Of a stretch of 64,000 nucleotides of DNA, positions 46,446 to 49,398 are shown piece by piece. The stretch's first letter is position 1, and the number at the start of each line of letters is the position of its first letter. Source of the stretch: Polynucleobacter paludilacus (lineage in GTDB: Bacteria > Pseudomonadota > Gammaproteobacteria > Burkholderiales > Burkholderiaceae); contig NZ_CP061298.1 in NCBI RefSeq assembly GCF_018687595.1, positions 1,550,001 through 1,614,000 of the forward strand, given 5' to 3'. Made by a program: the position numbers and the translations under genes. The notes beneath the pieces were generated by a model. That model had not been told where the DNA came from and ran no database searches. It was given only the letters and a program-made list of their open reading frames with translations.

Positions 46446-47897
46446 TTAATAACGATAGTGATCAGGCTTGTAAGGCCCTTGCTTAGTGACGCCAATATAA
46501 GAAGCCTGCTGATCACTTAACTCCGTTAACTGTGCATTGAGCTTCTTCAACTGTAAGCGTGCCACCTTCTCATCAAGATGCTTAGGCAAGGTATAAACAC
46601 CAACAGGGTACTTGTCTGTACCGACCGCATTCCACAATTCAATCTGAGCAATCACTTGATTGGCGAAAGAAGAGCTCATGACATAGGAAGGATGGCCAGT
46701 TCCGCAACCCAGATTTACCAAACGACCCTTAGCCAAAATAATGATGCGCTTTTCAGGCACCCCATTAGCGGCCGGGAAAATCACATGATCAACCTGAGGC
46801 TTAATTTCTTCCCAACGGTACTTTTCAATACCAGCCACATCAATCTCATTATCGAAGTGGCCAATATTACAAACGATCGCTTGATCTTTCATCTTGACCA
46901 TATGGTCATGAGTGATGACATGGTAATTGCCTGTCGCAGAAACAAAGATATCTGCCTTATCAGCAGCGTAGTCCATTGTCACAACACGATAGCCTTCCAT
47001 TGCAGCTTGTAGGGCACAAATGGGATCGACTTCAGTGACCCAAACCTGGGCAGATAAAGCACGCAAAGCTTGTGCAGAGCCCTTACCCACGTCACCATAA
47101 CCACAAACTACAGCTACCTTACCGGCAATCATTACATCCGTTGCACGCTTAATCGCATCTACCAATGACTCACGGCAACCATAAAGATTATCAAACTTAC
47201 TCTTGGTGACGGAGTCGTTCACATTGATCGCAGGAAACTTGAGTTCTCCCTTTGCAAACATTTGATAGAGACGATGCACGCCTGTTGTAGTTTCCTCTGT
47301 AACACCTTTGACTTTCTCCAGACGAGTTGAATACCAAGTTGGATCAATAGCCAATTTATTTTTAATGGTGGCGAACAGAATGGTTTCTTCTTCGCTGGTT
47401 GGATGACTAATACAGGCTTGATCTTTTTCAGCGCGTGCACCAAGGTGCAATAACAAAGTAGCATCACCACCATCATCCAAAATCATATTGGTGAATCCAC
47501 CGTCGGCCCACTCAAAAATACGGTGTGTGAAATCCCAATACTGCTCGAGGGTCTCGCCTTTAATCGCAAACACAGGTGTACCGTTTGCTGCAATCGCTGC
47601 AGCAGCATGATCTTGAGTCGAGAAAATATTACAAGAGGCCCACTGTACTTCGGCACCAAGCGCCTCTAGGGTTTCAATCAACACGGCTGTTTGAATGGTC
47701 ATATGCAAAGAGCCAGTAATACGGGCTCCACGCAAAGGTTGTTGCGCAGAAAATTCATCGCGAATCGCGATGAGTCCAGGCATCTCGGTCTCAGCAATGG
47801 CAATTTCTTTACGGCCAAAGTCAGATAAAGAAATATCAGCAATCGCGCAACGAGTAGCTACGAAATCCTGTAGATTGAAATCAGAAACGGTATTCAT
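46446..47897 (-). CDS. ahcY: Adenosylhomocysteinase (SAH hydrolase)
   Basis: Cleaves S-adenosylhomocysteine to homocysteine and adenosine, removing the inhibitor of methyltransferases (483 aa). The NAD-binding loop [12 protein letters not shown] and the C-terminal [10 protein letters not shown] are diagnostic. I choose the ATG at 47897 with a GGAG 5 nt upstream; the 20-residue upstream extension overlaps the leader RNA and is not part of the family. The preceding leader contains an SAH riboswitch, so expression should rise with SAH. metF lies downstream. Confidence 0.97.
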
Positions 47898-47957
47898 GAA
47901 TGCTCCAGCTAAATACGACCCAATGCCGGAGTAGATACTCGCTAGCCATTGAATCAT
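47898..47957 (-). promoter_or_regulatory. Expression platform of the SAH riboswitch
   Basis: Three mutually exclusive helices can be read on the minus strand. An anti-aptamer hairpin pairs CTCGCTA (47962-47968) with TAGCGAG (47938-47944). A sequestor pairs CTCCGGC (47925-47931) with GCTGGAG (47903-47909), covering the ahcY Shine-Dalgarno. A small hairpin GAGTA/TACTC (47929-47940) uses bases of both. SAH binding would free TAGCGAG, block the sequestor and expose the ribosome site. Confidence 0.6.
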
Positions 47958-48065
47958 GGGTTAGCGAGCGCGGTTGCAATAAGTAAATTCGGGATAGAAA
48001 AATTTACTCCCTCCAAGCCTGGGGATTGGCTGGTTCACAGCAATCCTTGCAACGCTCCTTGAAGG
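47958..48065 (-). ncRNA. SAH riboswitch aptamer
   Basis: The minus-strand leader of ahcY matches the S-adenosylhomocysteine riboswitch pattern. The strand GGAGCGTTGCAA (48047-48058) pairs with TTGCAACCGCGCTC (47966-47979). A GGATTG...CAATCC hairpin spans 48023-48046, and CCAGGCTTG supplies CTTG (48014-48017) for a pseudoknot with CAAG (48058-48061). An extra AGTAAATT/AATTTACT hairpin lies between. This class is known upstream of ahcY in beta- and gammaproteobacteria, where it turns expression on when SAH accumulates. Confidence 0.87.
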
Positions 48066-48068
48066 TAT

Positions 48069-48092
48069 GGGGAAATTGTAAACAATTTCCCC
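48069..48092. promoter_or_regulatory. Long palindrome over the probable ahcY -10
   Basis: Perfect 11-bp arms with a 2-bp centre, right arm GGGGAAATTGT when read on either strand. On the minus strand the central TACAAT (48075-48080) could be a -10, with TTGAGT 19 bp upstream as a weak -35. RNA would then begin just before the riboswitch aptamer. It could be an operator, or a 3' hairpin of metK; no T-run follows it on the minus strand. Confidence 0.45.
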
Positions 48093-48111
48093 GCTCTTAA
48101 CTCAATACTGC

Positions 48112-49278
48112 TTACAAACCTGCTGCAGCCCTTAATGCAGGGGCTTTATCACATTGCTCCCAAGTAAATTCAGGCTCTTCACGACCAAAGTGGCCATAAG
48201 CAGCTGTTTTACGATAGATCGGACGCAGTAGATTGAGCATCTGTACGATACCCTTGGGACGCAGATCAAAGTGCTCTGAAACCAACTGAGCAATCTTTTC
48301 ATCAGAAATCTTGCCAGTGCCAAAGGTGCTGACCATCACTGAAGTAGGCTTAGCTACACCAATCGCATAGGAGATCTGGATCAAGCATTTGGTAGCCAAT
48401 CCAGCAGCAACAACGTTCTTAGCAACATATCGACCTGCATAAGCAGCTGAGCGGTCAACCTTAGAAGGGTCTTTTCCTGAGAAAGCACCGCCACCGTGGG
48501 GAGCTGCACCGCCGTAGGTATCGACAATAATCTTGCGGCCTGTTAAACCGCAATCACCCTGTGGACCACCAATCACAAAGCGGCCGGTAGGATTAACGAG
48601 ATACTTAATAGCCCCTTTGACTAAATGCTTTGGCAATACCGGCTTGATGATTTCTTCGATGACTGCTTCGCGCAATTTCTCCAAAGAGATGTCTTCAGCA
48701 TGCTGGGTAGAAAGCACTACCGTGTCGATCGAATCCGGCTTGCCGTCTACATAACGCAGGGTCACTTGGGATTTCGCATCTGGGCGCAACCAATTTAAAC
48801 GACCATCACGACGCAGTTGAGATTGACGCTCGACCAAACGATGCGACAAGTGAATTGGCAAAGGCATTAACTCAGCAGTTTCATCGCAAGCGTATCCAAA
48901 CATCAAGCCTTGGTCGCCGGCACCCTGATCGAGACCATCGTCATGGGCCTTATCAACACCTTGAGCAATATCTGGGCTTTGCTTGTCATAGGCCACTAAG
49001 ACTGCGCAGCCTTTGTAATCAATACCATAAGCGGTATTGTCGTAACCAATTTCACGCAAGGTATTACGGGCTACTTGAATGTAATCTACGTTGGCATTGG
49101 TTGTAATTTCTCCAGCCAATACCACTAAACCGGTATTACAGAGTGTCTCAGCCGCAACACGGGCAGTTGGATCTTGGGTCAGGATGGCATCGAGGATGGC
49201 ATCAGAGATCTGATCAGAGACTTTATCGGGGTGACCTTCAGAAACCGATTCTGAGGTAAAGAAGTAATCGCTAGCCAT
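48112..49278 (-). CDS. metK: S-adenosylmethionine synthetase
   Basis: Makes SAM from methionine and ATP in the cytoplasm (388 aa). Motifs [10 protein letters not shown] at the start, [12 protein letters not shown] and the phosphate-binding [17 protein letters not shown] are all intact. I start at the ATG at 49278, preceded by AAGGAA at 7-nt spacing; an upstream extension of 21 residues lies in the leader RNA. A sigma-70-type promoter about 130 bp upstream and a structured leader precede it. ahcY and metF follow on the same strand, forming a SAM-cycle cluster. Confidence 0.97.
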
Positions 49279-49398
49279 TGCATATTCCTTTAAAAAAATT
49301 AACACGATCATTAGGACAACTCGACGTGCCAGGAACCACAACGGCGACGCTTTAGCAGATTTTTTGAATCGCCCTGCAAGTTGTCTTAACTCGGCGAT
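49279..49398 (-). ncRNA. Structured metK leader, unassigned
   Basis: About 120 nt between the predicted RNA start (about 49398) and metK. A closing helix pairs GACAACT (49379-49385) with AGTTGTC (49315-49321). Inside lie TGC-AGG against CCT-G-GCA and GCGA against TCGC. The apical segment GTTCCT (49331-49336), in the loop of TGTG/CACG, can pair with the metK Shine-Dalgarno AGGAA (49285-49289). It does not match SAM-I, SAM-II or SAH aptamers. The TTCCTGGC stretch recalls the SAM/SAH riboswitch of Rhodobacterales metK leaders, but the spacing differs. Confidence 0.4.

Follow-up and report, generated by a model that had tools for sequence, protein, structure and literature searches.

According to the available text of PMC4239095, SAH riboswitches are found in beta- and gamma-proteobacteria, and their core regulon consists of ahcY and metF; the main text of that paper has no occurrence of Polynucleobacter, and the text available to us gives no expression-platform details. 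The SAM/SAH riboswitch (RF01727), as described in the available text of PMC7367207 and PMC2864571, likewise binds SAH and controls translation, but differs in its fold, in its location upstream of metK in Rhodobacterales and in its OFF direction, with the Shine-Dalgarno sequence (SD) placed in the pseudoknot helix. We considered RF01727 as the identity of the ahcY leader element described below and rejected it: the fold, the context and the direction are all different. A literature search, with most subscription journals outside its coverage, found no published description of the platform analysed here.

We examined a 64 kb stretch of the genome of the freshwater bacterium Polynucleobacter paludilacus (‘the window’, 64,000 nt), in which folding models make it likely that the leader of ahcY, and probably of metF, is an SAH-responsive translational ON riboswitch. 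As the sensor class is already known, the find itself is unsurprising; what it provides is a folding scheme for an ON riboswitch that is specified in full and open to test.

An SAH riboswitch aptamer precedes ahcY and metF

The minus-strand element upstream of ahcY-metF is the Rfam SAH riboswitch aptamer (RF01057). The features of the locus are the following:

47959..48066, minus strand: SAH riboswitch aptamer (RF01057); cmscan, 52.1 bits, full model
48047..48057, minus strand: aptamer pseudoknot helix, 5' strand GAGCGUUGCAA; read from the sequence
47966..47979, minus strand: aptamer pseudoknot helix, 3' strand UUGCAACCGCGCUC; sequence and duplex energy
46446..47897, minus strand: ahcY, adenosylhomocysteinase, start ATG 47897; TIGR00936, 584.9 bits
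45585..46415, minus strand: metF, methylenetetrahydrofolate reductase, downstream gene; TIGR00676, 313.0 bits
48069..48092, minus strand: palindrome with perfect 11-bp arms and a -10-like TACAAT (48080-48075) inside; directly upstream of the aptamer

A preliminary description of this DNA had proposed an SAH riboswitch, and the covariance model bears the identification out: the match (48066-47959, E 9.8e-07) is well over the gathering score of 37 and runs over the full model, 1-78, without a cut, with the conserved two-stem core in place. RF01057 is the sole Rfam family over gathering in the window, and the 1,670,875-base genome contains one copy. Among named relatives, those closest in ahcY are Polynucleobacter. 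In its full-length match, its pseudoknot strands and its position upstream of ahcY and metF the element is a regular member of the class; the minus-strand order is metK (48112-49341), aptamer, ahcY, metF, with names by NCBIfam. The pseudoknot role of the two strands listed above is established for SAH riboswitches. The helix that they form is absent from the base pairs of the Rfam model and was therefore located by complementarity only: 48057-48047 is complementary to 47979-47966, and the duplex of the 5' strand, one extra 5' base included, with 47979-47966 comes to about -12.6 kcal/mol.

The palindrome at 48069-48092 is unique in the genome with up to 3 mismatches allowed. A consensus promoter scan found no promoter and did not flag it; given its TACAAT, the palindrome may have a promoter role. 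In other clades, TACAAT or TATAAT was seen by eye near the palindrome position, in some cases overlapping the metK stop codon. We did not move the ahcY start to an in-frame ATG at 47957, which would give a 503-aa ORF, as this ATG is located within the switch arms and, by eye, lacks a visible SD; we treat the extension as a probable chance occurrence. An open in-frame upstream AUG is present in 47 of the 84 genus platforms introduced next.

RF01057 matches were found in 143 of the 151 Polynucleobacter genomes searched. Sampling 129 of these 143 gave 129 leader rows, counting the window and L001, which is its own copy; these reduce to 84 distinct platforms. Two loci were excluded because no ahcY match was obtained for them, namely L201, a second copy that does not precede ahcY, and L027, where the ahcY start is present at a contig end. 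Five of the eight genomes without a match do have ahcY. In four of them (G028, G092, G112 and G139) a contig end lies 1-74 nt from the start of the ahcY match, and G129, 180 nt from a contig end, has sequence ahead of the platform that reads as unrelated; these five misses are taken as assembly effects. Two further genomes, G057 and G143 (78% and 81% complete), yielded neither RF01057 nor an ahcY match, and the same is true of G033, which is listed as 100% complete in a single contig. A plasmid search gave no match. One genome, G015, carries a second SAH riboswitch (L201, 301-394, 53.3 bits) that by eye precedes a metH-like frame; its strands 1 and 2 are of the kind seen in the ahcY leaders.

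Four strands form two predicted locks on the SD

The expression platform between aptamer and start codon is built of the following elements:

47959..47969, minus strand: strand 1 GCUCGCUAACC; first 4 nt common to the aptamer, partner is strand 2 or strand 4
47937..47947, minus strand: strand 2 GGCUAGCGAGU, anti-aptamer arm; strand 3 is a second partner of its 3' part
47947..47957, minus strand: outer 5' arm of the ON hairpin AUGAUUCAAUG; partner is 47925-47915 when strand 1 is held
47925..47932, minus strand: strand 3 ACUCCGGC, SD sequestor; its ACUC part also pairs with strand 2
47915..47925, minus strand: outer 3' arm of the ON hairpin CAUUGGGUCGU; from held-strand folds and cross-clade pairing
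47902..47912, minus strand: strand 4 UUAGCUGGAGC, holding the SD GGAG (47906-47903); partner is strand 3 or strand 1

The SD lies 5 nt upstream of the ahcY ATG. Strand 1 has the consensus GCUC-R-CUAACC in 84 of 84 distinct genus platforms, the extraction of which searched for this very motif (with a looser fallback and zero leaders lost). The preliminary description had placed four of the pairing segments correctly, CTCGCTA at 47968-47962, TAGCGAG at 47944-47938, CTCCGGC at 47931-47925 and GCTGGAG at 47909-47903. It had drawn the 3' strand of the aptamer helix as 47962-47979; the overlap with CTCGCTA is real, while the true strand is 47979-47966. Because 47965-47962 is outside it, the aptamer and the helix of strands 1 and 2 (helix 1:2) compete for GCUC (47969-47966) only.

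In the mechanism that we propose, strand 1 would be free when SAH is absent and would lock the SD through either of two nearly equal folds. In OFF-A, strand 1 would pair with strand 2 (helix 1:2, -16.0 kcal/mol in the window), leaving strand 3 to cover the SD (helix 3:4, -10.4 kcal/mol). In OFF-B, strand 1 would sit directly on the SD flank UUAGC..GAGC, with strands 2 and 3 forming a hairpin of their own; its pairs in the window run from G47969-C47902 to C47966-G47905 and from G47965-C47908 to A47961-U47912. The two locks can be told apart at 47912-47910 (UUA), which is within helix 1:4 and outside 3:4, and at 47926, which is paired in 3:4 only. On binding of SAH, the pseudoknot would hold the GCUC of strand 1, depriving both locks of their key strand, so that the 2:3 hairpin (47957-47915) would stand and the SD would open. 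A build-up of SAH would in this way yield more SAH hydrolase, the enzyme that clears the methylation by-product S-adenosylhomocysteine. Since strand 1 is common to both locks, the predicted sign of regulation is the same for either.

The anti-sequestor is where the earlier scheme has to be replaced. It had been given as GAGTA/TACTC, but five pairs would leave a 2-nt loop and cannot form; what does form, GAGU/ACUC with the loop AUCU, has 4 bp and, alone, -2.5 kcal/mol, and we rejected it as a stand-alone helix and retained it as a hairpin tip. The actual anti-sequestor includes the outer arms that had been missed: with strand 1 held, the predicted fold in the window is a hairpin of 17 pairs, 47957-47937 with 47932-47915 (A47957 to U47915), at -15.5 kcal/mol.

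Free folds of the window give -26.4 kcal/mol for OFF-A and -25.7 kcal/mol for OFF-B, and the full window leader folded without the pseudoknot adopts OFF-A. The ON state can be estimated at between -21.7 kcal/mol (hairpin, -15.5, plus GAGCG/CGCUC, -6.2) and -26.5 kcal/mol (the fold with GCUC held, -20.3, plus the same -6.2). Without ligand, OFF would thus be favoured by about 0 to 5 kcal/mol, in sums that are rough because the pseudoknot is outside the model.

Predicted accessibility of the SD follows strand 1

Over the 84 distinct genus platforms, the mean probability that the SD is unpaired, computed with a folding program that ignores the pseudoknot and the ribosome, is 0.12 in the free leader, 0.61 with GCUC held and 0.68 with the 11 nt of strand 1 held; the corresponding values for the window are 0.11, 0.73 and 0.69. 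The translational ON logic of the preliminary description agrees with these predictions: holding strand 1 raises SD accessibility by more than 0.2 in 77 of the 84 platforms, and holding GCUC only does so in 64. The mean rise on holding strand 1 is 0.56 as compared to 0.07 in dinucleotide-preserving shuffles of the platform middle, in which strand 1 and the SD region were kept. A rise of more than 0.4 is seen in 68/84 real platforms versus 306/3360 shuffles, and the window’s rise of 0.58 was reached in none of its 40 shuffles. Holding 8 nt in the loop of helix 3:4 instead, as a control, changes accessibility by -0.08 on average.

Some platforms (L010, L119, L129 and L030) keep the SD closed when GCUC alone is held; with strand 1 held, the SD of L030 stays at 0.04, and that of L132 drops slightly, from 0.25 to 0.16. 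A close relative of the window, L022, has a naturally occurring G-to-U substitution in strand 2 at the position matching window 47938, which weakens both 1:2 and 2:3; its predicted SD accessibility is 0.18 in the free leader, 0.57 with strand 1 held and 0.15 with GCUC alone.

Cross-clade tests favour the helices

The preliminary description made covariation among related leaders a test of the helices. Comparison between clades supports them; inside single clades, compensatory changes are no more numerous than in shuffles, neither in the window clade (where 42 of its 51 platforms were aligned) nor in a sister clade of 6. The arms hardly vary within the window clade, so the closest leaders neither support nor oppose the helices.

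We compared 14 clade representatives, one per group; the groups come from single-linkage clustering of the platforms with an alignment-score cut-off of 0.80 and are not independent lineages. Own-clade pairing is favoured over cross-clade pairing in permutation tests for 1:2 (the CTCGCTA/TAGCGAG anti-aptamer helix of the earlier scheme, thereby upheld; p 0.0008), for 3:4 (p 0.0022), for 1:4 (p 0.0032) and for strand 2 with the downstream stretch (p 0.0062), tests that are not mutually independent because the strands share letters. The ON hairpin gives the lowest values, at p 0.0001, which is the floor of 10,000 permutations: its outer arms have -5.6 kcal/mol within and -3.2 kcal/mol across clades, and the full 2:3 hairpin has -17.2 versus -11.7 kcal/mol. 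In 9 of the 14 clades no foreign partner pairs as well in the full ON hairpin. The complementarity of strand 1 peaks at the SD, with -6.6 as compared to -1.6 to -3.1 at four upstream offsets. The window clade itself goes the other way for 1:2, its own duplex having -13.7 kcal/mol versus a cross-clade mean of -17.2 kcal/mol, with none of the 13 cross-clade pairings weaker.

When 50 of the 84 platforms were aligned with MAFFT, strand 3 came out, by eye, one column out of register between clades; we accordingly used the alignment for helix 1:2 only and relied on alignment-free energies and permutation for the other helices. In this alignment 97.5% of the cells of helix 1:2 are paired. The helix shows one GC-to-AU double change, in 10 rows of a single clade, the strand 1 G-to-A change and that of its partner being confined to this clade, and an A-C mismatch in 13 of the 50 rows, of the window clade type.

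Candidate mechanisms: relay, direct lock and alternative modes of control

In the relay of the preliminary description, taken alone, OFF-A would be the only OFF fold, with strand 3 as the lock. When each kind of pairing is penalised in turn, the window ensembles differ slightly in favour of the relay (-27.2 versus -27.0 kcal/mol). A lead of more than 1 kcal/mol goes to the relay in 34 of the 84 platforms (about 12 kcal/mol at most, in L010) and to the direct fold in 6; in the other 44 the two are closer. Helix 3:4 has cross-clade support, and when window transcripts of increasing length were folded, as a crude series, helix 1:2 was the free fold at 33, 40, 46 and 55 nt. Against an exclusive relay, strand 1 in the window divides its mean pairing probability between strand 2 (0.57) and strand 4 (0.42), and in the growing series the 62-nt transcript has the 2:3 hairpin as its free fold, with 1:2 back at 67 nt, when strand 4 is complete. 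We regard the relay alone as quite possible, if somewhat short of probable. The CTCCGGC/GCTGGAG sequestor of the preliminary description is hence supported as a helix (3:4), but, with a second OFF fold of nearly equal energy, it may be neither the sole nor the main lock.

The converse reading, in which 1:4 covers the SD, with the 2:3 hairpin as a constant spacer and minor parts for 1:2 and 3:4, draws on the same near-equality, OFF-B being less than 1 kcal/mol from OFF-A in the window. Among the 14 clade representatives, 4 have as their lowest free fold the direct one, in which the pairing of strand 1 with strand 4 encloses the 2:3 hairpin, and outside the genus strand 1 folds onto the last 28 nt up to the start codon in 26 of 27 short platforms. 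A purely direct lock is nevertheless unlikely, as 1:2 and 3:4 carry cross-clade support of their own and the L025 clade favours OFF-A by 8.6 kcal/mol on average.

Transcriptional control, with the 1:2 stem as an intrinsic terminator or with Rho acting on the untranslated leader, we consider highly improbable for the window. The genus does contain terminator-like forms: a U6 or longer tract starts within 0-1 nt after strand 2 in 13 of the 84 platforms, and beyond those U6 occurs anywhere in one further platform only. On the ahcY tree (55 rows, 9 with the tract, 40 without and 6 uncounted) the trait needs two changes, forced by well-supported branches, with two gains and a gain plus a loss being indistinguishable. 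To go by the U-tracts, the 1:2 stem may act as an added terminator in two other clades. The window is absent from the 13 and has no U-tract after strand 2, its platform is not of the intrinsic-terminator kind, and a scan of 47880-48400 found no terminator-like site, in agreement with the terminator-less leader of the preliminary description. The U-tract stem of L025 went unflagged by the scan as well, under short-loop rules that allow 8 nt where its loop has 12.

An OFF switch, in which SAH binding would hide the SD, is barely conceivable: we found no points in its favour, accessibility falls by more than 0.2 in 0 of the 84 genus platforms with strand 1 held, and such a switch would presumably make little metabolic sense for SAH hydrolase.

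A more far-reaching reading, which we put forward tentatively and hold to be less likely than not, is that the four strands form a closed ring (1:2, 2:3, 3:4 and 4:1) that offers two SD locks of about equal stability and a single key strand owned by the aptamer, and that this ring has been retuned along the genus between the direct lock, the relay and, in two clades, a terminator in series with the translational lock. With relay-favouring, direct-favouring and terminator-like forms among 84 natural platforms of one genus, the series is suited to asking how a platform mechanism changes while its sign stays.

Platforms outside Polynucleobacter

Outside the genus, 79 loci were taken (some genomes twice); in 4 of them no start or motif could be recognised, and the other 75 were analysed. 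Measured from the aptamer GCUC through the start codon, 27 platforms are short (28-51 nt) and 48 are long. The short platforms of related genera resemble OFF-B in that strand 1 is the key strand and folds onto the region before the start (the 26 cases above place at least 5 of its first 10 nt there); they differ in having no room for strands 2 and 3, the Polynucleobacter platforms being 74-84 nt long. In the long platforms strand 1 folds to the middle in 25/48 and to the end in 21/48. Mean SD accessibility outside the genus is 0.25 free, 0.38 with 4 nt held and 0.42 with 9 nt held, a smaller rise, so the clear effect seen in Polynucleobacter is not general.

The long platforms of Azonexus and Dechloromonas (L103 and L106) do show it in prediction: accessibility is 0.00 in the free leader, and holding 4 or 9 nt lifts it to 0.54 or 0.94, respectively. 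Their free fold has strand 1 near the SD, like OFF-B; their arm sequences are different, and they are 95 nt long. The paper on the SAH riboswitch class by Wang et al. in 2008 reportedly used Dechloromonas aromatica.

A 2022 review, in its available text, names SAH among the riboswitch classes not found in tandem (PMC9481103). In 4 of the 60 order-level genomes searched, we observed two full-length RF01057 matches 44-95 nt apart (L264 501-731, L265 1001-1222, L266 1001-1264 and L267 1001-1285); all 8 matches are over gathering, and each pair, by eye, precedes an ahcY-like frame.
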